Positions 8,975-62,112 of a stretch of 64,000 nucleotides of DNA are shown here, in pieces. A program made the position numbers and the translations under genes. Each line of letters opens with the position of its first letter. Position 1 is the stretch's first letter. Source of the DNA: Aquilaria yunnanensis (Eukaryota; Streptophyta; Magnoliopsida; Malvales; Thymelaeaceae); assembly GCA_039654915.1 (NCBI GenBank), contig CM077597.1:60292001-60356000 (forward strand), given 5' to 3'. The notes under the pieces are model-generated. The model worked only from the letters and a program-made list of their open reading frames with translations. It searched no databases and was not told where the DNA came from.

Positions 8975-8979
8975 GATGT

Positions 8980-21569: not shown

Positions 21570-21727
21570 GGTTGAGCGGAAGAGATATATTGTACAAGAA
21601 ATATTCTAAGTACAGAATGGTCTGGAGAAGAATGGTCTTGAGAAAAATTTTTCAAGTATACCAAATTGTCCAAGACAGAATTCCGCGAAGGTGCTCGCCA
21701 CGAAAAAAGCAGATGTGACTTCCCGAA

Positions 21728-22212
21728 GTCCCTTGAGCCACTATGCTCGGGAAAAATGGGAATTAAGAATCTTGCAAAGGTACTCGGCATAATCAGTGCA
21801 GAGAAAATTTTCCGAACACCCTTGAGCGAACATGCTCGGGAAAAAGGGAAAGCAAGAATCTCGCAAAAGTACACGCCAAAACAAAAGCAGAGGTAATTTC
21901 CGAACACCCTTGAGCGAACGTGCTCGGGAAAAAGGGAAATGAGCAAACTCGTGAAAATTTTCCTAAGTCCCTTGAGCAAATATGCTCGGGACAATAGGAA
22001 GACAGAAAAATTTGGCTGAAGGTTTTCCGAAGTCCCTTGAGCGAACATGTTCGGGATAAAAGGGAACAAAAAGCCTGCAAAAGACTTAGCCAAATTTTTA
22101 CAAACTTTCCAGAAAGTCTCTTGAGCGAGCACACTCGGGACAAAGGAAGGTAAAAAGTTTCTTTGGTTGCAGGTTTTTCGAAAGTCTCTTGAGCAAACGT
22201 GTTCGGGACAGT
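21728..22212 (-). repeat. Short interspersed-motif array between pol and antisense gene, TatA
   Basis: Seven copies of a motif close to TTGAGCGAACATGCTCGGGA start at 21733, 21822, 21910, 21972, 22037, 22121 and 22189, spaced 62-89 nt. Most contain the dyad GAGC-N6-GCTC. The spacers are AT-rich and partly similar. The array sits where the two convergent genes end, 3' of both the gag-pol stop and the antisense stop. Confidence 0.85.
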
Positions 22213-24978: not shown

Positions 24979-25458
24979 TATTTATAGGCCAAAAGTGGGT
25001 AGCCGAAAAGAGATCATAAGTACCCATTGGAGGCGAACCGTCGCCGTAACTGCCCACTGCACCCGAAAAGGCGCGCAGAAATAGGGGACACGCCTCCCCA
25101 AACATCCCTGGAAAACCGGGACACACCTCCTAATTGGGACACGTCGTTTGACATCCCTGAAAAGTGGAGACGCGCCGCTCAGTCTGACACACTTGGCCAT
25201 CAGACCTGCAGAAATAAAAAGCGGGCCACCTCGAGGACACCAAGAGACAGGCTATGGCTGAACAGCCCATGACTTTTGGGCAAGAGGTGTATCTTTGGTA
25301 CAGGCTTTGCCTCGGAGACACCAAAGAATAGGCCAAGGTAGAACAGCCCAGACCCTCGGGCAAAAGGTGCGACCTCGGAACAGGTTATGCTTCCCAACAA
25401 GACTCCCAACGACAACCTCGGAAAGAGATGCAAACCGAAGTCTTCACTTCGGCTTTCC
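24979..25458 (-). promoter_or_regulatory. Antisense promoter region of TatA, lacking the G-box segment
   Basis: TATAAATA is on the minus strand at 24979-24986, about 290 nt upstream of the antisense ATG. Compared with TatB, 59 bp containing GACACGTGGC are missing at a GCGC microhomology near 25070. Further upstream (about 25230-25390) lies the 80-bp direct-repeat pair also seen in TatB and TatD. Confidence 0.65.
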
Positions 25459-26339: not shown

Positions 26340-27071
26340 CTATGTTTTCTAAGTGTGCAAAGTTCGTAGCAGTAAAATGTGTGCCAATTCCACAGATTCA
26401 CAGATTGGCAACGCATCACAAATTTTGTTCACCAGTTCACGACGCGTTGCCAATTGTGAAAATGTGGCCCAAACATTACAAACTGTGGCAACCCGTCACC
26501 AACAGTTGGCGAAGCGTCGCCATAGGCAAGATGGCAGAATTTCTCACATTTTGCTGGGGATATTGAGGTGAGACCTAAAGGGGTTCTTAGGGTGCCTTGA
26601 GGCCTAAGTATGATGAGGGTACTCTGAGACTTCCAAAAGTCCCTCAAGACTTAAGCATTTCCCTAAGGTTTGAAAAATTTTATGGTTGCTTGAGCCATAA
26701 GCAAGGAAACTAGTTGCAAATGAGCATAACTAAGTACCATTAGCTCGGGTGAAAGTTTAAAACCCTTGGCGACCTAGCCGTGCCACAGTCACGAGGATGC
26801 AGGGTGAAACCTTAATGCACCTAGGCTACAAGGTCTAAATGACCTAGTCTACAATAGTCCCAGCATAATTCCCTTACATAACATACTAAATGAGAGGTTC
26901 AACTGGTGATTTATCACTAGTTAGGATGGCAAGCACAACTTCCTAGTAGGCAAGGCAATGCCTTGTAGTTTAAGGACAAAGATGAGGAGAGGTCTCAAGG
27001 GACCTAAATATATGCATATATTATACCCTCAGGATGTATGAGCTTACAGCGGGTTACATATGTTATCATAT
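26340..27071. repeat. Unassigned repeat J, right part
   Basis: Continuation of 14516-15401 after TatA. It contains a cluster of related words (GGCAACGC, GACGCGTTGCC, GGCGAAGCGTCGCC) at about 26405-26520, giving dyads of the kind seen in some long gypsy LTRs; that comparison is from memory. No open frame of note is present. Confidence 0.45.
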
Positions 27072-28359: not shown

Positions 28360-28711
28360 AATACCTGTGCCGAAGATGCACCCTTTGTCTGAAGACATAG
28401 GCTATTCAACTATAGCCTGTCTTTTGGTGTCTTCGAGGTAACCTACTGCTTTCCTTCTGCAGGTCTGCGAAACGTCGCGTTCCCTAACCAGGCGTGTCAG
28501 TTTAGAGTGGCGCGCCCAGGATTTAGGGGTGTCAGAAAGCGTGTCCCCCTTCTGGCGTGATCGCTGACACGTGGTGGGTTTGCCATTGGTGAGGGCTATA
28601 TCGGTTACAATAGGCGTGTCTTTTCGTGTGCAGTAATCAGTTACGGTGACTGTTCGCCTTCGTGGGGTATTTATGATGCCAGTTCGCCTATCCCCCCTCG
28701 GCCTATATATA
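28360..28711 (+). promoter_or_regulatory. Antisense promoter region of TatC
   Basis: TATATATA at 28704-28711 lies about 235 nt upstream of the antisense ATG at 28947. GACACGTGG with a CACGTG core (28568-28573) lies about 130 nt further upstream, at the same place as in TatB. Only one unit of the upstream 80-bp repeat is present. Confidence 0.65.
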
Positions 28712-28946: not shown

Positions 28947-31324
28947 ATGCCTATTCCCGAGAGCTAGAAAAATGGACGAAGAAATTCTTCCTTCCCTAGT
29001 ATGCCATTACAAGGTTGCCATGCCCTGACCAATTTAGCTTTTTGAACCGTAGTAATGAGGTTACCATTTTCCGAGCCCAGCTGAAGGCCGGACTTCGGTA
29101 CCCTCCTCCGAAGATGATTTGCAACTTTTGCCAATTTCAAGGCATTACCGTAAATCAACTTCCGCCGAACTCGTACTGCTATTTTAACGTCTTCCTCTAC
29201 ATGTGTGGCGTGTTCAGGATAGAACCCCACTTTGTTATTTTCATGCAGTACTATAAGCTCTTCGTGGTCTCGAAGGGTGGCTTTTATTTTATGCTACCTC
29301 GATGATCCGGCAGCAAAAAATATATGTTCACCTTTGCCACTAAGGATAGCTGGCGAGGGTGGCAACAAAAATTTTTCTTTATGAAGATGGAGGAGGCCTG
29401 GTCGCATGTTCCGACCAAGTGGGCTCGGGGAAAGCTGGAGATGGGCGTCGTCGATCCGAAGATAATGCTAACTCCAGAGTTGGCTCCTGTCTTCGCAGAC
29501 TTCGACGAACGTATCTGCGCTGTCTCGGACTGGGGTCCCGAGGTCCCCTCGTGCTCTCTCTACCCCTTCCCCATTAATTGGAGGTTAATGACTGAGGAGG
29601 TTCTTCGGGAGTTAGGGGTAGGGAAGGAGCACAAGACTGACCTGGAGATGCCAGCTCCTGCCATCGCCTGGAAGGATTCTTGGTTGGTGAAATTCCTTCG
29701 GGAGGAAGTTACTTTCAAAACTTTCTTCGAGAATAAGTTATCTCTGGCTCCCTTTGTTATGGTTTTCATCTTGGACTCACGCTGATATCTTCTTTCTTTT
29801 CCAGAGATGGGGGATGACACTGCTGCCTTCTACAAATCCCTTTTCACTGGTCAAGTTGAGAAGGGGGAGCAGACAAAGAAGGTCATCTCCCGAAGGCGGA
29901 AAATGACTGGGGCTGGGCCTTCTTCCAAACGGGCGAAGAAGGCCATTCCGCCCCCCCAGCCGAAAGTTGTTGAGGAGATAAGCGGAGAGCCCGAAGCTGC
30001 TGCCGTTCCGCCGGCCGAGGTCGCTGCCGAGGTCCTTTCGACCGACGTCCCTCCTCAGAGCCCCACTTCGTCACAAGCCCTTCTGGATGCCTTGGTAGAG
30101 GCCCCTTCTACCGAGGAGCGGCGCAAGATCAAAGGCAAGGGGATTTCTGCCGATGAGGTTTTGGGTTCGGACGACGACGTGGCGGAAGTGCCACCAGGTT
30201 CATTTTCTAGCGAACTGTGATGTCTTCACCTTTCTTGAATCTTTGAGATTGACTTGCGTTAACTATCTTTTTGTTTTGCCGCGTAGGGGAGTTACTTACT
30301 CCAGGTTGGGCAGCCGATCATGCCCGGAGGCGAGCCCTTCGGGATGCCCGTATCCCGAAGGGGAAGATCCCAAAGAAGCCTTTCTGGTCGTTTACGGAGG
30401 ACATGAATTTCTAGTCCGAAGACTGCCAGCAAATGGCTAAAGAAATCTCGAAAGGGATTCTTACCAAGGCCTCCTTCAGGGCCATTACGGAAGCTCACCC
30501 GGGCGACGATTCCCTCGCCGTGAAAGTTTCCGAGCACGCTGCCCAGGTATGGCTCATTCCTTTCTTTTTCCTTTTGATTTCTGCTAAGTATTTGACCCTC
30601 TTTTTTGCCTTGCTGATGTTGCCTTTACTTTTCTGCAGCTGCTGGGGTACGCTGGCTTCCTCAGAGTTCGGGTGGCGAGGCAGACGGCGTTCGAGCCTAG
30701 GCCTTAGAAGTTATAGAAAAACCTAAGGCCAGGTGCTCAAAGTTGGCTGTTCGGAACACGCAGCTGGCTGATGCTGCCGAGAAGGAGGTGGCTGCCCTTC
30801 GGGAGGAATTCCTGAAAGAAAAAGAAGAACTTTTGAAGGATTCCTCCCAGAAGATTTCTGACCTCGGCTCCCAAGTGGCGGAGCTGATCTCGGTGAATGA
30901 GGTGCATCAAAAGGAGAAGTCAGAGGCTGTGGCTCTCCTGGCGAAGGCGCTTGCTGAGAAGGCTACCCTCCAAGCCGAGGTTGATTCTTTGAAGAAGGAG
31001 CCAAAGAAGAAGAAGATGAAGGCACTGAAGAAGGAGGTCGCGGATCTGAAGAATGACCTTGAGGAGGTTGAGGTTGAGAAGGATAAATCCGACCAGATGA
31101 CAAAGGTCACTTTTCAGGACGGGTTTTGCCTTGCTCCTCACCAAGTTCTTTAGAGGTTTCCAGATCTGGACCTTTCTTTCTTGGAGGCTCTAAACATTTC
31201 CGAGGGGCCTCGGTGGTCTTGGTCCAAGATCGAGCACCTGAACCTGCCTTCTTCTTTCCCGATGCCAAACGTGGTGGAAAAGAACGGGGGAGCTGATGGC
31301 TCTCGGGACGCCGAGATTCCTTAG
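28947..31324 (+). pseudogene. TatC antisense gene: four exons, several lesions
   Basis: Exons: 28947-29732, 29805-30197, 30287-30546 (260 nt), 30639-31324. Introns 2 (30198-30286) and 3 (30547-30638) have intact GT and AG. Intron 1 has an acceptor TTCCAG but its donor has changed from GT to AT at 29733-29734. Exon 1 lost about 45 bp after PIPES, with a stop there, and has a TGA near 29304; the PF04195-type block (MICNFCQFQGI, MCGVFRIEPHF) is otherwise clear. Exon 3 has an in-frame TAG near 30413. Exon 4 is a Lys/Glu-rich coiled coil with a CAG-to-TAG change near 31152. Divergent from TatA and TatB yet with the same architecture. Confidence 0.85.
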
Positions 31325-35464: not shown

Positions 35465-35933
35465 ATAACCTGTTCCGAGGTCGCACCTTTTGCCCGAGGG
35501 TCTGGGCTGTTCGGCCTTGGCCTATTCTTTGGTGTCTCCGAGGCAAAGCCTGTACCGAAGATACACCTCTTGCCCAAAAGTCATGGGCTGTTCAGCCATA
35601 GCCTGTCTCTTGGTGTCCTCGAGGTGGCCTGCTTTTTATTTCTGCAGGTCTGATGGCCAAGCGTGTCAAACTGAGCGGCACGTCTCCATTCCTCAGGGAT
35701 GTCAAACGACGTGTCCCAATCGGGAGGCGTGTCCCGGTTTTCCAGGCACGTTTGGGGAGGCACGTCCCCCATTTCTGCGCAGCGGTTGACACGTGGCTTC
35801 TTGCCATTGGAGGATAGGCGCGTCATTTACAGAGGGCGCGCCTTTTCGGGTGCAGCGGGCAGTTACGGCGACGGTTCGCCTCCAATGGGTACTTATGATG
35901 TTCTTTCGGTTACCCACCTTTGGCTTATAAATA
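35465..35933 (+). promoter_or_regulatory. Antisense promoter region of TatB with G-box and TATA box
   Basis: TATAAATA is at 35926-35933, 287 nt upstream of the antisense ATG. GACACGTGGC (35788-35797) holds a perfect G-box core about 130 nt upstream of it. Several ACGTGTC-like words occur at 35700-35770. Two 80-bp direct repeats start at 35471 (TGTTCCGAGG) and 35551 (TGTACCGAAG). The region is conserved with TatC and TatD. That it acts as a promoter is inference from motif position and conservation. Confidence 0.7.
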
Positions 35934-36219: not shown

Positions 36220-38567
36220 ATGTCTGCGATGCCTGTTCCCGAGAGCTGGAAACCTCTTCTGGCCCATCCTTGCTGTACCACCCCCGAAAAACTAGAGAGG
36301 TGGAAGAAAAAATTCTTTCTTCCGTCTTACGCTGTGACCAGACTGCCTCGTTCTAGCCATTTTGCTTTTTCAAACCGTGGCGACGAGGTTACCGTCTTCC
36401 GAGCCCAACTGAAGGCCGGACTTCGGTATCCTCCCCCGAAGGTGGTTTGCGAGTTCTGCCAATTCCATGGCATTGCTGTGAACCAGCTTCCCCCGAACGC
36501 GTTCTGCTATTTTAACGCCTACCTCTGCATGTGTGGCGTGTTTAGGATAGAGCCCCACTTCATCATTTTCATGCAGTACTACAAGCTCTATGTGGTCCCG
36601 AAGGGTGGCTTCTATTTCCTGCTGCCTCGGGGATCCGGGAGCAAAAAATTCACCTTCACCTTCGACACGAAGGATAGCTGGCGGGGGTGGCAGCCTAAGT
36701 TCTTTTTCCTCAAGGTGGATAAGAACTGGTCTGATGTCCCGACCAGGTGGGCTCAGGGAGTGCTGAACGCAGACGTCGTTGATCCGAGGATGCTGCTGAC
36801 CCCACCGTTGGCTTCCGTGTTCGCGGATTTCGACGCCCGCATTCGGGCAGTCGCTGACTGGGCTCCCGAGGTCTCTCCTCGTGCTCTTTACCCCTTTCCT
36901 ATCAACTGGAGGTTGATGACCGAAGAAGTTCTTCGGGAGCTGAAAGTGGTTAAGGAGCACGTGACTGACCTCAATATGCCCGCTCCCGCCATGGCCGGGA
37001 AAGACTCCTGGCTGGTCAAGCTCCTTAAGGGGGAGACTTCTTTCGAAACTTTTGCCGAAAGTGAGTAATCTTCCATCCCTTTATACTTTTTCCTCGGACT
37101 TACGCTGATATTTCTTCTCTTTTTCAGAGATGGGCGATGGGGCTGCCGCTTATTACAAGGCCCTCTTTTCTGGCCAAGTGGAGAAGGGGGAGCAGACAAA
37201 GAAGGCGGCTTCCCGAAGAAGGAAGACGACAGGGGCGGGACCCTCGGCGAAGCGAGCTAGGAAGGCTCTCCAGCCTTCTCTGCCAGAGCTTTTGGAAGAA
37301 GAAGTTGGCGAAGACGCTGGTCTTGTTGAAATTCCACCGGCCGAGGTCCCCGCTACTTCCGCCGAGGTGCCTCCTCTCGACCTCGAGGCCCCCAGAAACA
37401 CTGTAGTGGTAGAAGTACCCACCGCCGAAGAGCGGTACTGGCAGAAGGGTAAGGGTCTTTCTTCCTAGGGGCCCGAGGATCCCGAGGACACTGTCTCCGA
37501 GGTTCCTCCAGATATGCCTTTAGGCGAAGTTCAGCTCCTTTTCCTTTCGCGAATTTTTCTTCTGCTCCTAACTTCCTTCCTACTTTCAGAGGAGCCCCTT
37601 GCTGCTGGCTGGAGGGCCATTCATGAGAGGAAACGAGCCCTCCGCGATGCCATAATCCCTGAGGGGAAGATCCCCTTGGAGCCCTTTTGGACAATCACGG
37701 AGGATATGAATTTGCTCTCCGACGATTGTCCAAAAATGACAAAGGAGATTTGGAAGGGGATGACCACTGACGCCTCCTTCCGGGCCATTGCGGCGGCTCA
37801 CCCGGGGGATAATACCCTCGCCGCAAAAGTCACCGAGCATGCTGCTCAGGTATAGTCTTTACACTTTTTTCCTCAATTTTCTAAGTGTTTAGACTTGTAC
37901 TAACCTGGACTTTTGCCTTGCCGTAGCTGCTGGAGTACGCTGGTTATCTCCGAGTTTGGGTGGCCAGACAAGCTGCCTCCAAGGATGCGACTTCACGGGA
38001 ACTCAGTGAAGCAAAGGCTTCGCTTGCGAAGGTGATCGCCAGAAACCAGCAGCTGACAGCGGATTGTTCTCAGCAACTTGCTGCCGTTCGGGAGAGCTCT
38101 CGAAGAAAAGAGAAGAACTTGAAAAGGACTCCTCCCGGAAGATTGCCGACCTCGGCGACCAAGTAAAGGGGCTGCTCGCCGCCAACGAAGATCTTGTCAG
38201 GGACAAGGCTGTTTCTGACAGTCTTGCGTCGAGGTTGACGGACGAGAACAATGCTCTTCAAGCCGAGGTCGAGGCTCTGAAGAAGGAGTCCGGAGAGACG
38301 CTGGGGATAAGCGAGCTCGAAGAGGAGGTTGCTGAGCTGAGGGACGAGGTCAATGTCCTTGGCGTTCAAAAACGTACTTCTGATAACATGGCCAAGGTCG
38401 CCTTTCAGGACGGCTTCTGCCTCGCTCGGCACCAGGTGCTGCAGAGGTTCCCAGATTTGGACCTCTCTTTTCTGGAGGGCCTAAATATTCCTGAGGGACC
38501 TCGGTGGCAGTGGTCCAAGGTCGAGCATCTGAAGCTTCCTGGTCTTCGTCTGCCCGGCTCTCCCTAG
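36220..38567 (+). pseudogene. TatB antisense gene: four exons, PF04195-like domain plus coiled coil
   Basis: Exons: 36220-37060 (841 nt), 37128-37511 (384), 37590-37849 (260), 37927-38567 (641). Exon 1 is fully open (MSAMPVPESW to TFAESE); it holds WKKKFFLPSYAVTRLPR, the LRYPPPKVVCEFCQFHGI and HFIIFMQYYKLY blocks of PF04195, and DSWRGWQPKFFFLK. Intron 1 (37061-37127) starts GTGAGT and ends TTTTCAG. Intron 2 (37512-37589) has lost its donor: AT replaces the GT seen in TatA. Intron 3 (37850-37926) is intact. Exon 2 has one TAG (37466-37468) and exon 4 a 1-bp deletion near 38095. Exon 4 is coiled coil (EELEKDSSRKIADLG, ELEEEVAELRDEV). The unspliced exon 1 frame alone could give a 282-residue protein. 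Confidence 0.87.
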
Positions 38568-38694: not shown

Positions 38695-39255
38695 CCACTG
38701 TCCCGAACACGTTTGCTCAAGAGACTTTCGGAAAACCTGTAACCAAAGAAACTTTTTACCTTCCTTTATCCCGAGTGTGCTCGCTCAAGAGACTTTCTGG
38801 AAAGTTTGCAAAAATTTGGCTAAGTCTTTTGCATGCTTTTTGTTTCCTTTTATCCCGAACATGTTTGCTCAAGGGACTTCGGAAAACCTGCGACCAAAGA
38901 AACTTTTTACCTTCCTTTGTCCCGAGTGTGCTCGCTCAAGAGACTTTCTGGAAAGTTTGCAAAAATTTGGCTAAGTCTTTTGCAGGCTTTTTGTTTCCTT
39001 TTATCCCGAACATGTTTGCTCAAGGGACTTCGGAAAAGTTTCAGCCAAATTTTTCTGTCTTCCTATTGTCCCGAGCATATTTGCTCAAGGGACTTAGGAA
39101 AATTTTCACGAGATTGCTCATTTCCCTCTTTCCCGAGCATGTAGGCTCAAGGGTGTTTGGAAATTATCTCTGCTTTTGTTTTGGCGTGCACTATTACGAG
39201 ATTCTTGCTTTCCCTTTTTTCCGAGCATAGTGGCTCAAGGGCCTTCGGGAAGTCA
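38695..39255 (+). repeat. Eight-unit dyad-motif array of TatB
   Basis: Units close to TCCCGAACATGTTTGCTCAA start near 38700, 38769, 38853, 38920, 39004, 39069, 39131 and 39220. A 151-bp tandem duplication (from 38751 and 38902, both beginning ACTTTTTACC) has increased the number relative to TatA. The array lies between the stops of the convergent gag-pol and antisense genes. Confidence 0.87.
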
Positions 39256-45708: not shown

Positions 45709-48184
45709 CCTACCCTCTTTGGTAAGGGTTCTCTTTCTCTCATGGACTATTTTCTGTAATTTTTAAACATCCATGGAGCTAGGGCTAAGCTTGGAAGAGA
45801 GCCATGTGCTTGATGAACCAAGCTTAGTGAGGGGAGTGCACTTATTGAAGGTTTTGTGACCTAGTGTGAAGTGCACAATGATGGCAGTAAAGTGAGGGTT
45901 TCTAGTGCCCAAATTCAGTACTAACTACTGTTAAAATCGTCCTAAGACCAAGCATTAGCTTGAGGAGGGCTGCCATAGTGATTTGGTTATGTTTATTATG
46001 TGGTTTATGGACTAACCTAGGGTATATGTTGCTGCGACATTTCATGTGTTTGTTGTTTGTGTTTGGCTGCTGCATTTGGTTGCTATATCTTGTATATATG
46101 CATTGTATTTTTTTTTTTTTAGTGTCTTTGGATGCAGGTTTTAATGAGGATCACATTACCTTAAGAAACCAAGTGTTACCCTTACTAAGTTTCTCCGTGA
46201 AACTTACTCCCCTCAATTCTGTCATTTCAAGTCCAGCTGAAAGATCACCTACAAACTAACCTTTTTGGTTTGATTTTTAATCTGACATTTCTGGTACATG
46301 AGCTTACGTATGTCTAGTTATGATCTGGAAATTTTGGTGATTTTAGGAGCACATTTGGTATTTTTAATGGTGGTACTTACTGTGTTGTGCAGCAGCTGTC
46401 CAGCATCCTGTTTCTGGAGTTCATTGTGTCTCAGGCACTACTGTAACCTAGGGTGCGTATTTAGCTGAGTTAAGACCATATTGTAGTGCATGTATGAATG
46501 TACATTTATTGTATGTAAAATGAGACAAGTATGTGAACATTTGAGTAATGTTTTGGCTATGTAAGTGATGTGGTGTAAAGCTGCCTAAGTGTGAATGATA
46601 GGCTGCTTACTTGTAAATTCTGTTTTGGCCACATAAAGTTGTTAAAAGAAATGGAATTTAATTCCTATGTGTAATGGACATATATGGGATAGCCTTGGAG
46701 GACTTTCCTCTTGTGAATGAAGTGTTTGCATGGTTTGGAAAATTTGTATGGGCAAAATGGTCCAAAAGTTGCCAGAATTTCGACCATGTACCTAAAGTTT
46801 AATATCTCCATGTGTAGAATGAATCTTGGTATGGGATTTTGACCATACCTAGATAACATCTAGAGGTTGAACTGGAATTTTGAATTTATGGATTTGGATC
46901 CTTGTAGCCAAAGATATGATGTTTCAAAATTGGCTGTGTTACTGTTTATTTGGTCAGAATTTTGTAACCAACTTAAAAAATCTATAACTTGGTCCATAGG
47001 TGGGCTATTGATGTAAAAAAAAATTCCTTGGTTTTCTCTAAGTATCTAATTCATAATGGAGCAAATAAAACAGGGGTGTATGAAGCTAGAATGATACATT
47101 TTATTCGTCGAAGTTACAGGTGCAGTAGCTGGCCACTAGAACTTAACAAGATTGCCTAATGTGTGGAAGCCAAAACTAAGACTTGTGCTAGTGTTTTCCT
47201 TCTTTGCTGCCATGGTGTGCATGAAATGTGAATATGTGCGTGATGGTTGGACCAATATGCATGTATTTACATAGTGCCCAAAAGGGCCACTTGGGTATGC
47301 ACACTAAGGGTAGTGTTCTGATGGCCTACAGAACATTACCAATCCTAGGAGTCTAAATGCACAGTTTTAGCACCATAACTAGACTACCCCGGAGTGGGTA
47401 ACAGTTTTGGCCACATAATGTTGCTAGATCCAAGAGCATGTAATTTCTATGTGTATTGGACATATATAGGATAGCCATGGAGGGCTTACCCCTAGTGAAT
47501 GAAGTGTTTGCACACTCATGAAGTTTTGTATGGGCAAAATGGTCATAAAGTGACCAGAATTTTGACTCTGAGCTCAAAGTTCTATATCTCCCTATGTTCA
47601 ATGAATCTTTGTATGAAATTTTGACCACATGTAGAAAACATCTAGGGGTTGAACTGGGATTTAGAATTTCGAAATTTGGATCCCTGTAGCCAAAGATATA
47701 ACATTGCAAAGTTGGCTAAGTTACTGTTTATTTGCTCAGAATTTTGTAACCAACTTAAAAAATCCATAACTTGGTCCATAGGTGGGCTATCGATGTAAAA
47801 AAAAAGTTCTTACTTTGCTTAAAGACTCTACTTGATAATGAAGGAATGAAAATAGGGGGTTACATGGCTAGATTACTATAGTTTTTAGAAGAAGTTTCAG
47901 GTGTAGTGGCTGGTCACTTACACTTAATAAGACTGCCTAATATGTGGTAGCCAAGATTAAGACTTGTGCTAGTGTTTTCCTTCCATGCTGCCATGGTGTG
48001 CATAAAATGTGAATATGTGTGTAATGGTTGGACCAATATCCATGCATTTACACAGTGCCCAAGAGGGCCACTTGGGTATGTATAATAAGGGTATTGTTCT
48101 GATGGCCTACAGAACACCCCAACCCTGGGAGTTTTAAATGCACAATTTTGGTACCATAATTGGACTACCCCATAGTAGGTAACA
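45709..48184 (+). repeat. G-type LTR with an internal tandem duplication, left end cut by TatB
   Basis: From 45718 it follows the G 5' LTR (from 7318). The segment 46622-47403 is repeated at 47404-48184 (period 782); the G copy has it once (8218-8974). It ends GGTAACA, the same LTR terminus as at 8974. After it the sequence changes to a minus-strand gag. It could be the 3' LTR of element G itself, or another copy. There is no coding region apart from the short shared frame at 45960-46259. Confidence 0.75.
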
Positions 48185-48462
48185 TCATCACGATCATCAT
48201 CATATCTTTCCTCATTTCTACTTGCTTGATCACCAAGGATTGGCTCCTTTACAGGGCACCTCCCCACCTCAGGTTCTTTAGCTTGCCTAGTAGGTTCTAA
48301 GACTTGTGCTGGGACTTGTGCTTGACCCCTGGTCAAAGCCTGTATGCCTACTACAAGTTGGGCTAAAGTAGCAAGCATCACCTCATTCCTTTGCTCCATT
48401 CTCCCTTGGCCATCCACACTTGGCCTAGGCATTGTAGCCCTATGGTCAGGCTCTATGGCCAT
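48185..48462 (-). pseudogene. N-terminal gag fragment of a chromovirus-like element
   Basis: Read from 48462 downwards: MAIEPDHRATMPRPSVDGQG, then LATLAQLVVGIQAL and an acidic RYDDDRDD end, where the G-type LTR begins. This pattern (a short helical segment followed by acidic stretch) is typical of chromovirus Gag N-termini. A PBS lies upstream at 48680-48694. The rest of gag may be the minus-strand fragment at 5160-6561. Codons 5' of the ATG lack homology I can judge. Confidence 0.6.
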
Positions 48463-51557: not shown

Positions 51558-52416
51558 TGATGCCCAGGGGCTTCATCGTTGGTAGTCATGGTGACTGATG
51601 GAGGGACTCCCGGAGAGGAAAAATGCCTGGTGGCCAGTTTGCACAAGGGGGAGTGCCTAAGATGTTTAGAAAAAGTGGGTTAGGAGGTCCCCGGGGTGTT
51701 TTTCTGGGGAGGAGCCTCCGACGCCCAAGTCAGTGGTGCTGAGAGAATGCGGAGGAAATAGCACTGAGGGGTTCAGTGAACTCGCCTGGTCATATTTTCT
51801 CAGAGTGAGGAGTTAGGATATTTGCCAACCGTTTGCCAGGGTGTATTCCCTGGTAGTTATAGAGGTGTCCAGCCCGTTCAGATCGTGACACATGTTCGGT
51901 TGGATGTTCTCTGAATGTCTGGGCGTAGAGGACAAGTAGCTGGTGGCAGGCTTCCTTGAGCCTTGAGCCGAGACGGGCCATGATGTGACTTTGATGGCGT
52001 CGGCGTGTCAGAGTGCCGTTTGAGGCGGACTGTGATGTCTGTGGGCGACATGTCAGAGGCTTCCTTAAATGCTCCTACCGTACTCCCGAGGTTCCTGGGT
52101 GAGGTCATCCTCTAGTACGGACCGTGCCACTTCGGGAAACATGCCCCCAGTTTGGGGGTTCCCAGATTCAGGGAGTTCCGCCTTCGAGAAGATCATGTTC
52201 GGCCCGCACTAGCTGGTGCCACTTTTCTGAAGGCGGTCTGTTTACTACCTCGAGGGGGCTAATAGTATCCTCAAGTTCCCTGGTGTGCCGAGCTCGGGCT
52301 CTTCGGCTTTTCTCCGAGGTGTGTGATCCCACCTTTTTCCGGGTAGCGCCAGATCTCCTGGCCATTCTGGTGGCAGGGAGTTCGGCCAGGTGGAGGCGAT
52401 AGTCCTTCGGCTTTCA
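51558..52416 (-). repeat. 3' LTR of TatD
   Basis: 859 bp; plus-strand left end TGATGCCCAGGGGC, right end GGCTTTCA (one change from GGCTATCA). The polypurine tract follows at 52417-52427 (minus strand GAAAGGGGGCATG-like). Confidence 0.92.
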
Positions 52417-52499
52417 CATGCCCCCTTTCGGAAAGCCGAAGTGAAGACTTTGGTTTTTGTTTTCTTTCCGAGGATGTTCTTTGGAAGTCTATAGAGAGT

Positions 52500-52933
52500 A
52501 ACACCTGTGTCGAAGGTACACCTCTTGCCCAAAGGTGTGGGCTGCTCGGCCTTGGCCTGTTTTTTGGTGTCTCCGAGGGAAAGCCTGTGCCGAAGATACA
52601 CCTCTTGCCCGAAGGTATGGGCTGTTCGGCCATAGCCCATCTTTCGGTGTGTTCGAGGCAACCTGCTTATTTGCTTTTGCAGGTCTGTGAAGCGTCGCGT
52701 CTGATGGCCAAGCGCGTCAGTCTGAGCGACGCGTCCCAGTTTTTTAGGGATGTCAGAAGACGTGTCTCCTATTTTGGTGTGATGGTTGACACATGGCGCA
52801 CTGTCATTGGAGGAGACTCGCGTCGTTTACAGAGAGCGCGTCTTTTCAGGCGCAGAGTGCAGTTACGGCGACGGTTCGCCTTCAAAGGGCACTTATGACG
52901 TCATTTCAGTTACCCACCCTTGGCCTATAAATA
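52500..52933 (+). promoter_or_regulatory. Antisense promoter region of TatD
   Basis: TATAAATA at 52926-52933, about 260 nt upstream of the ATG at 53194. The G-box of TatB is changed to GACACATGGC near 52788. Two 80-bp direct repeats start at 52506 and 52586. The GCAGTTACGGCGACGGTTCG segment near 52858 is shared with TatA and TatB. Confidence 0.65.
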
Positions 52934-53193
52934 GCCCATTCCATCATAAGCCCCTTTTGCTTTTGCTTCTGCTCTTTCCCTGCTTACCCTTTTCTCTGCG
53001 CTTTCTCTTGCTTTTGCGGCAGAGCTGTTTTAATCTGAGCTTTTTCCGGTAACCTTTTACGACGGTGACCTCCGATTTTGGCAACTCTTTTGGTGGGTTT
53101 TTTCTTTCCAGAGTCTCTTAATACCTTTGTTTTTTCGATTTTTTTCCGGAAGTTGTTTTCTTGCCTCTTTCCGAACTCATTTTTCTGTCCAAA

Positions 53194-55583
53194 ATGCCTA
53201 TCCTTGAGAGCTGGCAGCCTCTTTTATCTCATCCTTGTTGTACCACCCCTAAAAAGTTAGAAAGGTGGAAGAAGAAGTTCTTTCTTCCCTCTTACGCCAT
53301 TACCCGGCTGCCACGATCTGACCACTATGCTTTTTCAAACCATAGTAATGAGGTTACCATTTTCCGAGCCCACCTGAAGGCCGGACTTCGGTATCCTCCC
53401 CCGAAGATGGTTTGCGAGTTCTGCCAATTTCATGGCATTGCTGTGAATCAGCTTCCCCCGAACTCGTACTGCTATTTTAACGCCTTCCTCTGTATGTGTG
53501 GTGTCTTCGGGATAAAACCCCATTTTGTAATTTTCATGCAGTACTACAAGCTCTTCGTGGTCCCAAAGGGTGGCTTCTATTTCATGCTACCTCGGGGATC
53601 CAGGAGCAAAAAATTCATGTTCACTTTTGCCACTAAGGACAGTTGGCGAGGGTGGCAACAGAAATTCTTCTTCCTAAGGATAGATGAGGCCTGGTCGTAT
53701 GTTCCGACCAAATGGGCTCGGGGAAAGCTGGATGTGGACGTCGTTGATCTGAGGATACTGCTGACTCCAGAGTTGGTTCCCGTGTTCGCGGACTTCGACG
53801 GACGTATTCGCGCCATCTCCGACTGGGCTCCCGAGGTCACTCGGTGCTCCCTGTACCCCTTCCCCATTAACTGGAGGTTGATGACCGAAGAGGTCCTTCG
53901 GGAGTTAGGGGTGGTCAAGGTGCATGAGACTAACCTCGAGATGCCAGCTCCTGCTATCCCCGGGAAGGACTCCTGGTTGGTGCAGCTCCTTCGGGAGGAA
54001 GTTTCTTTCGAAACGCTTTTCGAAAGTAAGTTATCTTCTACTCCCTTGTAGTTTTTCCCTCAAACTTACGCTGATGTCTTTTTTCTTTTTCAGAGATTGG
54101 GGACGGGGCTGCTGCATTCTACAAGTCCCATTTTTCCGACCAGGTGGAGAAGGGTGACCAGACAAAGAAGGTGGCTTCCCGAAGGCGGAAGTCTACTGGC
54201 GCTGGTCCTTCGGTGAAACGGGCAAAGAAAACTGCCCAGCTTCCTCAGCAAGAAATTTCCGAGGAGGCTGTCGAGGAGCCTGGGGCAGCCGAGATTCTGC
54301 CGCCCGAGGCTGCTGTCGAGGTCCCTGCCGCTGCCGAGGTTCCTTCCGCCGACATCCCTCCCCAAAGCCTTTCCATGCCACAGGCCCTTCTGGAGGCCGT
54401 GGTAGAGGCTCCTTCTACCGAGGAGCAGTGCAGGAAGAAAGGCAACGGGATTTCGACCGAGGACTCTCAGGACTCGAAGGACGTCGTGGTCGAAGTGCCG
54501 CCAGGTTTGTTGTTTTCAGAACAAGTATGGATCTTTTGTTTTTCTGAAATTTTCTTTGTCTCTGACTTGCTTCTCGTTTTTGACATGCAGGGGAGTTGCT
54601 TACTCCGAACTGGGCGGCCGAACACGCGAAGAAGCGGGCCCTTCGCGATGCCAAAGTCCCGCAAGGGAAGATACCTAAAGAGCCTTTCTGGACATTCACG
54701 GAGGACATGAACTTGTACTTCGAGGACTGTCCTCAAATGGCGAAGCAGATTTCGAAGGGGGTGCTTACAGAGGCCTCCTTCAAGGCTATTGCGGCGGCCG
54801 ATCCGGGCGATGACACCCTTACCGTGAAAGTTACCGAGCATGCTGCTCAAGTGTGCTCTTCACTCATTTTTCCCTTCAATTTTTCCTAAGTGCTTGGCTC
54901 TTACTGACCTTGCGTTTATCTTTTCCCAGCTGCTGGGGTAAGCCGGCTTTCTCCGAGTTCGGGTAGCCAGGCAGACGGCGTTCAGAGCTTCGGCCTTAGA
55001 GGCCTTAGAAAAAGCGAAAGTCACATGCTCGAAATTGACCGCCAAGAACCAGCAGCTGGCAGATGCTGCGAAGAAAGAAGTTGCTGGCCTTCGGGAGCAG
55101 TTTCGGAAGGAAAAGGAAGACCTTGAGAAGGACTCCTCCCAGAAGATTCCTGACCTCGGCGATCAGGTGGCGGGGATGCTTGCTGCCAACCAAGACCTTC
55201 TCAAGGATAAGTCAGATTCTGACAATCTCATACTGTCGTTGGTGGCTCAGAAAAGCGCTCTTGAAGCCGAGGTCAAGTCTTTGAAGAAGGAGCCCGACGT
55301 GAAGAAGAGAATGAAGGCGCTGAAGAATGAGGTTGCAGATTTGAAGGACGAGATCGAGGACCTTGAGGTTGAGAAGGACAAATTCGACCAAATGACCAAG
55401 GTCGCCTTCCAGGACGGGTTCTGCCTTGCTCGGCACCAAGTCCTTCAGAGGTTCCCAGGTCTGGACCTCTCTTTTTTGGAAGCTCTGAACATTCCCGAGG
55501 GGCCTCGGTGGTCTTGGTCAAAAATCGAGCACCTGAACCTGCCTTCCATAATTCCGGCGCCGAGAACTCTTAGGTTGTTTTAG
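53194..55583 (+). pseudogene. TatD antisense gene: four exons, one nonsense codon, best-preserved copy
   Basis: Exons: 53194-54025 (832 nt), 54094-54504 (411), 54591-54850 (260), 54930-55583 (654); together 2157 nt, exactly 719 codons. Introns 54026-54093 (GTAAGT...TTTTCAG), 54505-54590 (GTTTGT...ATGCAG) and 54851-54929 (GTGTGC...TCCCAG) are all GT-AG. Exon 1 opens MPILESWQPLL and holds the PF04195-type block (MVCEFCQFHGIAVNQLPPNS, MCGVFGIKPHF) and DSWRGWQQKFFFLR. Exon 2: Lys/Arg-rich, then Pro/Glu/Ala-rich. Exon 3: PNWAAEHAKKRALRDAK, FWTFTEDMN. Exon 4: long heptad coiled coil (LEKDSSQKI, ALKNEVADLKDEIEDL), ending FLEALNIPEGPRW. The only lesion I see is TAC-to-TAA at 54939-54941. The 53194 start is chosen because homologues begin at the same P-x-x-ESW position. 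Function unknown. Confidence 0.9.
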
Positions 55584-55717
55584 GGGCCTTTTCCTTTTTT
55601 TTTTGTTTTTCTCTTCATTTTTGTGCTCCTTTTTTGGGCACTTCTTCTTTGTAAGCCTGATCATTCTTAATGAATATTTTTTGGCTAAGTCTTTTTTGCA
55701 AGATTTTGCATTTCCAT

Positions 55718-55920
55718 AGTCCCGAACAAGGTCGCTCAAGAGACTTTTCGAAAAGTCAGAAAAATTTGACTAACTCTTTTTGCAAGATTTTGCATTTCCA
55801 TTCGTCCTGAACGCGTTCGCTCAAGAGACTTCGGAAAACTATTCTGCGCTTGTTACGGCGTGTACTTTCGCGAGATTTTTTCCATTTTTCCGAGCGTGAT
55901 GGCTCAAGGGACTTCGGAAA
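55718..55920 (+). repeat. Three-unit dyad-motif array of TatD
   Basis: Units at 55720, 55805 and 55889 (TCCCGAACAAGGTCGCTCAA and variants), about 85 nt apart, between the antisense stop and the pol stop. Confidence 0.78.
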
Positions 55921-56055
55921 ATCACATCTGCGCTTTATCACGGCGAACACCTTCGCGGAATTCTGTCTTGCACCATTTTGTACATTTAAGAATTTTTCTC
56001 AAGGACATTATGTACTTAGGATTTTTTTTGTACAACACAATCCTTCCGCTCCATC

Positions 56056-59000
56056 TTAAGCGTAGAATTTCTTCAGGGCGTCTGAGTGCCAAGTGTTTTT
56101 CAATTCTACGCCTTCGGTGTCGCCAAGTTTGTACACGCCTTTTCGTACTTCGGCAAGAACCAAATAAGGTCCTTCCCAGTTCGCGCGAAGTACTCCGTGG
56201 GATGGCTTTTGGGGTGCAAAGTCAGCCCTTCGGAGAACGAGGTCCCCTTTCTTGATTTTTTTTGGCCTGGCTCGTAAATTTATAGCAGCGGCCACTCTTC
56301 TCAGCTCAGCTATTTCTCTGTGTTCGCCGACGAGGTCGAGCTTCGTTCTTAGGCCGAGGTCGTTTCCACCTTCATCAAATACTTGCACCCGTACTGATGG
56401 TCTAACTATCTCGATAGGGATGATGGCCTCTGTTCTGAAGACGAGTGAGAAGGGAGTCCCCCTTGTGGCTCTTCGGGGCGTTGTTCGGTAACTCCATAAT
56501 ACGCTTTGGAGTTCTCCTGGCCATTTCCCTTTTGCTTCCCCCAGCCTCTTTTTCAGGCCATCTTTTATGGTCCTGTTAGATACTTCCACCAGCCCGTTGC
56601 TTTGGGGGTGAGCTACTGGGGCGAAGTGCATCTTTATTCCGAGGTCGCTGATAAATTCTTGGAATCCTTTGTCTGTGAATTGGGATCCATTATCAGCCAC
56701 TAGTACCCTCGGTATGCCGAATCTGCATACGATGTTCTTCCATACAAACTTCTGCACTTCTTTCACCGAGATAGTTGCTAGCGGTTCTGCCTCGACCCAT
56801 TTGGAGAAATAGTCTACTGCTACCACGTAGAATTTCACGCCTCCGGGCGCTGCGGGGAGTGGCCCAATAAGGTCTATACCCCAGACTGCGAAGGGCCAGG
56901 GATAGTCAACCGAAGTTACCACTTCCGAGGGTGCCCTGTGGATGTTCGCGTGTCTCTGGCAACTGCCGTATTTCCGGACGAACTGCCTTGCGTCCTTTTT
57001 TAGGGTAGGCCAGAATTATCCCTGGCGGAGTATCACTGCCGCCAGGGCATCGGTTCCAATGTGTGAACCACACAAGCCTTTGTGGACTTCTTCTAGGATC
57101 ATTTCAGTATCCTCTTCGTTCACACATCTTTGCAGCGGATTCACGTATCCTTGTCGGTATAGTTCTTCACCGATTAGGAAGAAACAGCCGGAGCGCCTTC
57201 GCAGTTTTGCAGCGTCACCGGGGTCTTCAGGGAGCACATTTTCCTCGAGGTACCTTTTTATTGCATCCCTCGATCCTTTTCCCGAGGTCGCTATGCTTAG
57301 TACAAAGATGCTCGGATAGTCTAACACCTCGGTGTAGGTCTTTGACTTTGCCAAGCAATCTGCTTCGGTGTTTTTCCACAGAGGTACGTTTTCAATCCGT
57401 ACGGCGTCGAACTCTTGAATGAGTTTTGCTACCAACTCGTGGTATTTTGCCAAGGTTGGGTCCTTCGCCCCATAGTCTCCTGCCGTCTGCCGAACTATTA
57501 GCTGGGAATCGCTGTGAGCCTTTAACTTTCTCACACCAATTTTTCTGGCTAGTCGTAATCCCGCTATGAGGGCCTCATACTCAGCCACATTGTTAGTGAC
57601 GTTGAAGCTAAACTTGATAGCCTTCATTACTTCCAAGCCTTCGGGGCCTCTGATAATTACCCCAGCTCCCTGGTGTTTGGACCCCAAGGCTCCGACAACA
57701 TGTAAGGTCCATTCTGGCTCACCTTCGTTCAAATCCGGATGACTGTCCTCAGTGGTGGGTATTTCGGCAATGAATTCTGCCAGTGCTTGAGCTTTTATGG
57801 CCTTCCAAGGTTCATAGGTGATGTCGTGTTCGCCGAGCTCTATACACCACTTGGAGAGCCTTCCCGAATGATCCACTTTCCTCATAACGTCCCGTAGTGG
57901 TAGGCTACTTCGGACGATGATGGGGTGAGCCTGAAAGTATGGTTGCAGCCTTCTCCCTGCAAGCACCAAGGCGTATATAGCTTTTTGCAGCAGAGGGTAC
58001 CTGACTTCGGCGCCATGCAGGGATTTGCTTACATAGTAGACCGCCATTGTTTTGGCCCTTCTTCTTTCACGAGGACCGAGCTCACAGCTTTTTCCGTGAC
58101 GGCGAGGTATAACACGAGGGGCTCTCCCTCGCGAGGTTGTCGCAGAGTCGGCAGGCTGGCTAGGTATATTTTGAGTTCTTCCCAGGCTTTTTGGCAGTCT
58201 TGATCCCAAGGATGATCATCCCTTCCGAGGTTGCCTTCCTTTTTTGCTGCCTTAGTGAGGACTTTGAAGAAAGGCTGACACCTATCTCCGTACCTGGAAA
58301 TGAACCTGCTAAGAGAGGTTATTCTTCCGGTGAGTCTCTGCACATCTTTTACTGTGGCAGGAGTTCGGAACTCGAGCAGAGCCTTAATTTTTTCGGGGTT
58401 AGCATCGATGCCTCTTTTGGATACCATGTACCCAAGGAACTTTCCCGAGGTCACCCCGAACATGCATTTTTTAGGATTGAGACGAATCCTGAAGGCTCTG
58501 AGTATTTGGAAGGTTTCCTCTAGATCTGCAACGTTGTTGCGAGGGAGCTTGCTTTTGACTATCATATCGTCAACATACACCTCCATGTTTCTCCCCATTT
58601 GGTCCTTAAAGACCTTGTTCATCAACCTTTGGTAGGTGGCTCCTGCATTTTTAAGCCCGAAGGGCATCCTGACGTAGCAGTATGTTCCTCCCTCGGTGAT
58701 GAAAGCGGTTTTTTCTTTATCTTCGGGGTCCATCCTTATTTGATGGTAGCCGCTGAAGGCGTCTAGGAAACTTAGGAGCCCGTATTCAGCAGTTGAATCT
58801 ACCAGTTGGTCTATTGGCGGAAGAGGGTATGAGTCTTTCGGGCAAGCATCGTTCAAGTTTCTGAAGTCGATGCACATCCGGAGTTTGCTACTGCCTTCTT
58901 TTGTGGCAATGACCACGTTACTTAACCATTCGGGGTATTTGACCTCCCTGATGACTTCAGCGTCTAACAGGCGCTGGATTTCGGTTTTCACAAAGTTGCT

Positions 59001-61285
59001 CTTATGGGCTGAGATGCTTCGCTTCTTTTGCCGGACTGGCTTTGCTTCCAGGCTTACTTTGAGGCTATGCTGTATTGTGCTAGGGTGCACCCCTAGCATG
59101 TCTTTCGGCGAGTAGGCAAAGAGATCTTTATTTCCCAGTAGAAAAGATACAAGGTTTTTCTTGTCACCTTCGGGCAAGCTCTTCCCTATTCGGGTAGATT
59201 GTCCTGGGACAAGTTCTACTATTTCCGTTTCCGCTCTCGTGGGATCTCCTTCTTTGCCCTTCTCTGGCACCTTTGCCTCCATTGCTTGTGCGGGGTTATT
59301 TTCCAGAGCTTTTCGCGCTTTTACAAACACCTTCCTTACCTCGGCTTGATCTATGAAGACCTCTGCATCCCCATCCTTGGTGGTGAAAGTGACAGTCAAG
59401 TTCTTTACGTCAGGATGAATATGCAGGTTTCCCTATGTCTACCTTCCAAGGATGGCGTTGTACGAAGAAGGAACATCCATGACAATAAATCTCGCCATTG
59501 TGGACGCGTACAACTCAGCTGTTCCGTCGACCAAAGTTCCTTTCATCATCAAGGGGAGATCAATCCATCCGAGGACAGGTAGTTCGGAAGGTCTAACCCC
59601 GAAGGTGGGCGAGGTGACAGGCTTGAGCTCACTGCTGGAGATGTCCAAATTCAGCAGTAAATGCAAGAATAGGACATCAGTATTTGATCTGTCATCAAGC
59701 AACACTCTTTTGACGTCCCAGCTCCCTATCCTTGCCATGATTAGCAGCGGATCATCATGGGGGAAGATGACAGTGGATCCATCCTTGCGAGCCAGTTTCT
59801 TTGCAGGACTCTGATATTCCATGACCGCAATCTCTCTGGCCTTCCGCTTTCTTTCCGAGGATGGGAGCCCCGTGGTGATGGTTTGTATCACCCCTGCAGG
59901 AGGAGGAGGGCACTTTTTCGGACTTCTGTTTCTCCGTCTGTCGGTGTTGTAGTCCTCTTCTTCGGCCCTTTCTTCCTTATCTTTTCTTCCTTTTGGGGAA
60001 GGCATCCGCAGATATCTCCGAAGTTGGCCGAGTTTTATCAGCGACTCAATGTACTTCTTCAGTTGGAAACAGTCTTCGGTATCGTGGCCGTGGTCACGGT
60101 GAAACTGGCAGAACTTCTTGATGTTTTTCTTGTTATCAGCGATCATGGCCCTTGGCCGCCGAATCTGCGTCCCCTGCCTTTTAGCGCCCTGAGGATGTTT
60201 GTCCATGTAGTGCTCAGGGGTGTGAAGCCTTGCAGTTTGCTTCCCCGCATCCTCCGAGGTCGGCCTGCCTGTTCAGTTGGATGCCGAGCTTGCTGATTGG
60301 ACCCTTCGGCACGGTTGTGATCGGACTTCGGCCCAGCCATTCTCAGCTCCTTGACGGTCATGTGCTGTTCGGCCCTTCGGTAAAATTCTCTGAGGGTGTC
60401 CGGTGGGTCCTTTGAGAACTCATAAAACAGCTGTGAGTGTCGCCGAAGGCCCCGTGTCATGGTGAGGATGCGTATTTCGGGCCGGAAGTCCGGGACGCTT
60501 AGAGCTTCCCTGTTGAATCTTTCGACATAGTCTCGGATGGTTTCTCCGTTTCTCTGCTCTATGTCGAACATCTGAACAGGCATCTTCGCCGTTGGCCGGC
60601 TTCTAATAAATTGCTGCGCGAAGGCCGTAGACAACTCTTGGAACTCAGTGATGGTTCCTGGGGCCAATGAGTTGTACCACACAGTTGCTGGTCCCGTGAG
60701 GGTGACCTCGAAGCATTTACACATGGTAGTGGCGTTAGGCTCTTCCTCTGGGAAGGGAGACCGTCAGCGCCTCTTCGGGGAGCGAGTTTGGTGCTAAGGG
60801 TATAGGGACCTCACCTCAGGCGATGAACTCCTTCGCTGTGAGACTTTCGGTCGCTTGGACCCAGTTTGTCCCATAGGCTGTTTCCCGAGGGGTATATTCT
60901 CCGTAGACGACTCTTCGCGCGGGTCTCCGCTTCCTGAACTGCGATGAGTCGACCTCGGGCTTTTCTCTCGAGGGCGTGCAGGTGAGGGAGGTCTTTGGGC
61001 CTGTGCCTGCTGTGACCACCTTCGGTCGATCTGCTGTGTCATTTTGGCCACGACCAAACGCTGAAACTCTCTCATAAAGCTCATAGTGATTACTAGAGGG
61101 CGGTCTTCTTCAGGCGCAGAAGTCCCTGGGAGTGCTTGCTCAGCAGCCGGTTGTGTCTCAGGCGCGGACGAAGACCTCGGGAGTCCCTTGTCCTTAGAAC
61201 ACCGAGTTTCAACGACGGCGATCTCAGAGCGGGTTCCCACAGACGGCGCCAAATGATGCCTAGGGCCTTCATTGTTGGTAGTCAT
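56056..61285 (-). pseudogene. TatD gag-pol, inactivated
   Basis: Starts at ATG 61285, 32 nt inside the LTR (MTTNNEGPRHHLAPSVG), and ends with KKFYA at 56056. Gag lost roughly 300 bp near 60735-60755, from the basic segment to just before MCKCFEVTL. Frame changes follow near 60200 and a stop at 59439 (end of protease region, YNAILGR). RT is intact from 59399 (MCIDFRNLND, YVDDMIVKSK) to a frameshift at about 58040 in the Ty3 RNase H. The archaeal-type RNase H and integrase zinc domain follow, TAC-to-TAA near 57017, then the integrase core to the end (WGIDLIGP, ADNGSQFTDKGF, LVEVSNRT). A short in-frame deletion removes RKAFQQ near 56297. More damaged than the antisense gene of the same element. 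Confidence 0.92.
61233..61251 (-). other. Primer binding site of TatD
   Basis: Minus strand TGGCGCCGTCTGTGGGAAC, identical to TatA and TatB despite LTR divergence, after a two-base spacer. Confidence 0.88.
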
Positions 61286-62112
61286 GGTGACTGATGGAGG
61301 GACTCCCGGAGAGGAAGAACGCCTGGTGGCCGGTTTGCACAAGGGGGAGTGCCTGAGATGTTCAGAAAAAGTGGGTTAGGAGGTACCCGGGGTGTTTTTC
61401 CGGGGAGGAGCCTCCGACGCCCAAGTCAGTGGTGCTGAGAGAAGGCGGAGGAAATAGCACTGAGGGGTTCAGTGAACTCGCCTGGTCGTATTTTCTCAGA
61501 GTGAGGAGTCAGGATATTTGCCAACCGTTTGCCAGGGTGTATTCCATGGTATTTATAGAGGTGTCCAGCCCATTCAGATCGTGACACGTGTTCGATCAGA
61601 TGTTCTCTAAATGTCTGGGCGTAGAGGACAAGTAGCTGGTGGCAGGCTTCCTTGAGCCTTGAGCCGAGACGGGCCACGATGTGACTTTAATGGCGTCGGC
61701 GTGTCAGAGCGCCATTTGAGGCGGCTTGTGACGTCTGTGGGCGACATGTCAGAGGCTTCCTTAAATGCTCCTTCCGTACTCCCGAGGTTCCTGGGTGAGG
61801 TCGTCCTCTAGTACGGAGCGTGCCACTTCGGGAAATATGCCCCCAGTTTGGGGGTTCCCAGATTCAGGGAGTTCCGCCTTCGGGAAGATCATGTTCGGCC
61901 CGCACTGGCTGGTGCCACTTTTCCGAAGGCGGTCTGTTTACTACCTCGGGGGGGCTAATAGTATCCTCAAGTTCCCTGGCGTGCCGAGCTCGGGCTCTTC
62001 GGCTTTTCTCCGAGGTGTGTGATCCTACCTTTTTCCGGGTAGCGCCAGATCTCTTGGCCATTCTGGTGGCAGGGAGTTCGGCCAGGTGGAGGCGATAGTC
62101 CTTCGGCTATCA
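61254..62112 (-). repeat. 5' LTR of TatD with promoter
   Basis: 859 bp on the minus strand, starting TGATAGCCGAAGGACTATCG and ending AGGCATCA. ACACGTGTCACGATCTGA lies at 61574-61591 and TATAAATA at 61550-61557. Confidence 0.93.

Follow-up and report, generated by a model that had tools for sequence, protein, structure and literature searches.

The window analysed here, a 64,000-nucleotide stretch of Aquilaria yunnanensis DNA (positions 60292001–60356000 of its contig), contains nested plant Ty3/gypsy elements in which Pfam recognised gag, reverse transcriptase (RT), RNase H and integrase domains. Five of these elements carry, between pol and the 3' LTR, a gene on the opposite strand that has four exons in a single frame. 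The copies were named in window order TatF, TatA, TatC, TatB and TatD. The host element TatD (51558–62112, gag-pol on the minus strand) has LTRs that are 95.2% identical and a possible target duplication in which four of five bases match. Its antisense gene (53194–55583, plus strand) is situated between the 3' LTR (51558–52416) and the integrase end of pol (PF00665, 56059–56922, minus strand; the end lies at about 56059), to which it is oriented tail-to-tail. Tandem repeats of 65–151 bp are found between the 3' end of the antisense gene and pol in TatD (55680–55838), TatB (38701–39108) and TatA (21705–22066). Searches of the window with Rfam at the gathering score and a tRNA scan using the bacterial code gave no matches.

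Exon 1 was located at the five window sites by tblastn, and the exon boundaries were derived by aligning all five copies and compiling a boundary table. In TatD, exon 1 (53194–54025, 832 nt) contains the PF04195/TRP28 domain and is followed by a predicted GT..AG intron of 68 nt (54026–54093). Exon 2 (54094–54504, 411 nt) encodes a low-complexity linker with a motif resembling a nuclear localisation signal (NLS), RRRK-x8-KRAKK. A second predicted GT..AG intron (54505–54590, 86 nt) separates it from exon 3 (54591–54850, 260 nt), and a third (54851–54929, 79 nt) precedes the coiled-coil-like exon 4 (54930–55583, 654 nt), which has an internal stop close to its start and lacks 46 nt near its end. 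According to the same boundary table, the remaining copies, all broken, lie at 36220–38567 (TatB, plus strand), 28947–31323 (TatC, plus), 22341–24690 (TatA, minus) and 297–2084 (TatF, minus), the last being cut off early in exon 4 beside an LTR piece at 1–296.

The initial annotation of this DNA had proposed an antisense four-exon gene in five elements with introns at shared positions, and both the alignment and the splice sites bear this out. Its exon lengths are correct: exon 1 measures 841 nt in TatF, TatA and TatB and 832 nt in TatD, and exon 3 has 260 nt in four of the five copies. Intron lengths had been given as 67–120 nt; the lower end holds, while the boundaries of this analysis place the upper end at 112 nt across the window copies. 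At the same alignment positions, 13 of 15 donors are GT and 14 of 15 acceptors are AG, the non-canonical sites being donor 1 of TatC, donor 2 of TatB and acceptor 2 of TatF. Between these sites the introns have diverged; among inner columns with a letter in each of TatD, TatB, TatC and TatF, 24 of 55, 14 of 67 and 18 of 65 are identical in introns 1 to 3, respectively. The window introns also hold insertions and deletions whose lengths are not divisible by three.

Further copies were sought in the 842-Mb assembly with exon 1, whereby 140 of 16390 first-look candidates were scored and all 140 were listed as matches. Sixty of the 140 were examined, namely rows 2–41 and 20 lower rows picked by hand; since they were found through a well-kept exon 1, this sample is biased towards good copies. 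Across all 60, 170 of the 180 donor sites are GT and 164 of the 180 acceptor sites are AG. Seven fell below the homology cut over exons 3 and 4 and were excluded; one of these, L034, has an identity of 0.74, the cut being 0.75, and retains each of the six splice sites. In the 53 copies kept, GT is present at 158 of 159 donors and AG at 153 of 159 acceptors (GT in 52, 53 and 53 copies and AG in 52, 49 and 52 copies for introns 1, 2 and 3). Their divergence from TatD amounts to 6.6%, 5.8% and 10.0% at the first, second and third codon positions and to 9.0% in the introns. In these close copies, conservation is 0.92–1.0 at the splice dinucleotides and averages 0.82 over intron dinucleotides, but a value of 0.98 is likewise attained by 53 of the 218 ordinary dinucleotides in the introns. 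Close genome copies alone are thus weak support for splicing, and it is chiefly the diverged copies of the window that make the case for it. When the genome was searched for processed, intron-free copies with the junction-3 pattern, using a tool that skips very common words, there were no matches at up to two mismatches.

The same stretch might instead hold separate unspliced antisense ORFs (TRP28, linker and SMC-like) rather than one spliced gene. Exon 1 by itself indeed constitutes a long ORF and has an ATG, and an ORF-finder survey enters antisense ORFs of the TRP28 and Smc-like types as separate items (PMC11963269). Set against this are the GT and AG dinucleotides at matching positions, both in the five subfamily copies of the window and in 53 copies from the genome, the constrained frame that runs across every intron, and the intron indels just described; in addition, inspection of the alignment by eye showed no conserved start codons belonging to exons 2, 3 or 4. 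We therefore regard separate ORFs as rather unlikely. Splicing into one protein of about 730 residues is strongly implied by these features and is the likely outcome.

None of the five window copies has an intact frame. Read in the TatD register, TatF has eight internal stops, TatA three, TatC four, and TatB and TatD one each, that of TatD being codon 505 at the start of exon 4. TatC has additionally lost 46 nt of exon 1, and in both TatC and TatB the frame of exon 4 is changed by 1 nt. The window copies are broken relics of the antisense gene. When spliced, TatA has 2127 nt (709 codons) and TatD 2157 nt (719 codons), so that the exact multiples of three noted earlier are confirmed as lengths, but not as open frames in view of the three and one internal stops. 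An earlier estimate of about 710 residues for the protein also requires revision. The 46 nt missing near the 3' end of TatD are kept in 41 of the 53 genome copies, and hence 719 codons is not the usual length. Five of the 53 genome copies can be read openly over at least 690 codons, which extends the frame conservation to additional copies, and four of these five have 730–732 codons; the usual length is nearer 730. One further genome copy is stop-free across the stretch read.

Selection on the frame was assessed by dN/dS over the joined exons, with codons containing gaps or stops excluded. The nine between-subfamily pairs gave 0.21–0.27 in the gene frame, which is not near 1; many of the underlying dS values exceed 1 and are rough. 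With TatD, the values are 0.26 (TatB), 0.27 (TatA), 0.21 (TatC) and 0.24 (TatF); the other pairs gave 0.23 (TatB–TatC), 0.25 (TatA–TatC), 0.23 (TatB–TatF), 0.26 (TatA–TatF) and 0.22 (TatC–TatF). Between subfamilies, dS is 0.64–1.6 over joined exons or exon 1; for the pair TatD–TatF the dS of exon 2 was not finite, and the exon 4 remnant of TatF was too short for dN/dS. The close pair TatB–TatA gave 0.41.

A frame can stay open merely through constraint on the opposite strand, and all six frames were therefore compared for the pairs TatD–TatB, TatD–TatC, TatB–TatC and TatD–TatF. Forward frames 2 and 3 gave dN/dS of 1.08–1.41 and reverse frames 1 and 3 gave 0.90–1.72. Reverse frame 2 is also low, at 0.29–0.37 in the four pairs, as a shadow of a sense-strand ORF would require. 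It contains, however, 25–31 stop codons per pair versus 4–9 of 493–705 in the gene frame (33–51 in the other two forward frames), and the RT part of pol has the same effect in its mirror frame (0.16–0.22, three pairs). The low value of reverse frame 2 is a mirror effect common to pol. A shadow of this kind was rejected on the six-frame dN/dS and stop table and is very improbable. Pol in its own frame gave 0.08–0.14; the antisense gene is thus constrained, but less so than pol. Taken with the splice sites, the dN/dS values and the six-frame table uphold the proposal that the antisense gene codes for a protein under purifying selection.

The condition of the window copies, five of five being broken, would also suit an antisense unit that functions as a regulatory or silencing RNA with its protein a relic, and retrotransposon antisense transcripts can form double-stranded RNA and give rise to small RNAs (PMC7264820, PMC12786077). 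The exon dN/dS and the uninterrupted reading in five of 53 genome copies speak against this and indicate that the protein was kept until recently. An RNA role with a relic protein accordingly appears unlikely to us, and a protein-coding gene is the preferred reading.

The assignment of exon 1 to PF04195, already made in the initial annotation, stood up to a HMMER-type Pfam search, in which TatD exon 1 matched with 33.2 bits (E 6.4e-8) against a gathering cut-off of 26.2, and TatB with 27.7 bits. The N-terminal globular domain proposed earlier is a conjecture that AlphaFold did not bear out, its two models of exon 1 being unusable, with mean pLDDT values of 32.5 and 34.4 from 8 and 21 aligned sequences. 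A PDB sequence search with exon 1 gave no matches at E up to 10. Likewise, none of 7995 scored candidates in a protein database reached E ≤ 0.001 with the full spliced query. An alignment search with exon 1 found 13 proteins in public records; a wider alignment again found 13, with one new protein and one of the earlier ones dropping out. Two of them, P0001 and P0002 (86% and 84% identical), are uninterrupted through exon 1 and continue past its end, as is expected of unspliced ORF calls. Two other matches, P0003 and P0011, are labelled Agrobacterium sp. and Escherichia coli; these labels probably reflect plant contamination in the respective assemblies. No relatives were found in viral contigs, genome contigs, plasmids or phages.

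The linker predicted earlier is recognisable in exon 2, which is of low complexity with a P/E/K/S/Q/G/A fraction of 0.62–0.65 in four copies. Of the four copies scored for the NLS-like motif, TatD, TatB and TatC have it whole and in TatA it is interrupted by a stop. The C-terminal coiled coil, also proposed earlier, is weakly supported by a moderate signal in TatD exon 4: 7 of 500 shuffles reached its best heptad score, and 30 of 500 its count of high-scoring windows. HBZ of HTLV-1, an antisense product, is made from a spliced transcript and forms a bZIP dimer. The gene described here differs in having no bZIP family match above the cut-off; PF07716 scored 20 bits against 22.3 in a piece of TatA exon 4 and gave E 0.32 in TatD. 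The likeness to HBZ, which is named in PMC11963269, is at most functional: each is an antisense gene located 3' in a retroelement, with a nuclear regulator as its product, which for the present gene is a prediction.

Upstream of the gene, the sole TATAWAW between the 3' LTR and the ATG of TatD on the gene strand is a TATA-like box at 52926–52932 (plus strand). In every one of the five leaders, TATAWAW occurs once on the gene strand, 243–328 nt upstream of the ATG. Since shuffled leaders contain it in 55–301 of 1000 cases, the box alone is weak evidence. An inverted repeat, GGYGA-N4-TCGCC, occupies 52867–52880 (plus strand), 59 bp upstream of the TatD box. This distance is 59 bp in four copies and 58 bp (and 28 bp) in TatF, the other leader repeats being located at 35867–35880, 25032–25045, 28645–28658 and 2427–2470. 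Over the whole window and both strands the pattern has 12 matches at seven places, versus 0.17 matches expected, and six of the places fall within the five leaders. The seventh, at 26508–26521, lies outside them, just past the end of TatA.

Scored in 25-bp windows, conservation of the leader is highest around the inverted repeat (52859–52885, score 0.80–0.81), with those at 53077–53101 and over the TATA box close behind (0.79). A degraded second copy of the repeat is found 30 bp on, with 9–17 of 18 letters alike, a level reached by 0–26 of 2000 shuffles; in TatF the two clearly form a tandem repeat. Of the 60 genome copies, 56 retain TATAA, 35 have the inverted repeat unchanged and 54 have it with at most one mismatch. 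Over the 53 copies, divergence is 7.9% in the stems of the repeat, 10.8% in its loop and 11.2% in the leader after the TATA box. These patterns make the inverted repeat a candidate control site. Its position 58–59 bp upstream of the TATA box in all five copies appears not to have been described before.

By its PF04195 match and placement, the antisense gene is a member of the known PF04195/TRP28 antisense family. TRP28 antisense ORFs are reported in 97% of recently active Retand clusters, and the TRP28 protein is predicted to bind DNA, its function being given as unknown (Vicient 2025, PMC11963269). These ORFs share with the gene described here the antisense orientation, the location between pol and the 3' LTR, the PF04195 domain and the plant Ty3/gypsy host. 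They differ in that the survey used an ORF finder for single ORFs of at least 600 bp, listing TRP28 and Smc-like antisense ORFs apart, whereas here four exons form one gene; the word 'intron' is absent from the part of that text available. An earlier report covers an antisense ORF with an SMC domain and urges the study of antisense and spliced transcripts (Vicient and Casacuberta 2020, PMC7264820). The same source describes Grande gene23, likewise an antisense accessory gene, as having its own promoter and a nuclear product; the two genes may be likened by description. For Transposase_28, a frequency of 23% of Retand elements has been given, and for the plant mobile domain 57% of Ogre elements (Neumann 2019, PMC6317226). 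The Ogre ORFs with the latter domain (PF10536) are similar in supplying an accessory domain to plant Ty3/gypsy elements but differ from the present gene, in eight pieces of which Pfam detected no PF10536 even at E up to 10, the HMMER filters of that search dropping most weak matches.

No description of the four-exon structure was found in the searchable literature, which leaves most subscription journals outside its coverage. The structure thus appears to be undescribed, with the qualification that introns may have been described for gene23 (Gomez-Orte 2013). What is added to the known family is the four-exon model, the open genome copies of about 730 codons and the promoter module.

The gene may also have been captured from the host or from another mobile element and travel as a passenger that contributes nothing to the element life cycle. 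It is complete, with its own introns and a TATA-like box, and stands in the orientation in which introns survive; moreover, PF04195 is named after transposons. A captured origin is possible. A passenger without a role is unlikely, given the constraint between subfamilies at the dS values above and the retention of TRP28 in 97% of recently active Retand clusters, as reported in PMC11963269.

In our favoured reading, to which we assign a probability of roughly 0.6, a TATA promoter of its own probably drives transcription of the conserved four-exon frame, whose transcript is likely spliced and is predicted from its sequence to encode a nuclear, self-associating regulator of the element. RNA polymerase II would initiate about 240 nt upstream of the ATG, and the three short introns would be removed from the antisense transcript. 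In the genomic RNA, which is of the sense strand, the introns appear as CT..AC; they would therefore go unrecognised and outlast reverse transcription. This suggests a reason for the antisense placement, as splicing would remove introns lying on the genomic strand, and the element would lose them. The protein would return to the nucleus via the exon-2 signal and pair through exon 4, and exon 1 would contact DNA or chromatin, most likely the control region of the element itself, for which the inverted repeat is a candidate site. Through this contact, transcription or silencing of the element would be regulated. We thus favour, as a hypothesis, a nuclear regulator that also controls its own gene; both steps, regulation and autoregulation, are conjectural.

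A more far-reaching version, which we put forward tentatively and consider doubtful as a whole, would make the gene a complete spliced autoregulator of Retand elements. Its self-pairing protein would bind the inverted repeat before its own TATA box, the antisense direction would let the introns survive retrotransposition, and the separate TRP28 and Smc-like ORFs recorded across flowering plants would be its exons. Surveys of single ORFs would see the TRP28 gene in fragments. With the four-exon model, expression work can use the correct protein, RNA-seq can be screened for the correct junctions, and a conserved promoter module becomes available for testing.

Elsewhere in the window, Pfam recognised nothing at E up to 0.01 in an ORF at 47914–48462. 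An unidentified repeat occurs at 7319–8975 and 45719–48184, with a similarity of about 82% between the two; another, tandem copy of about 780 bp is present at 46622/47404.
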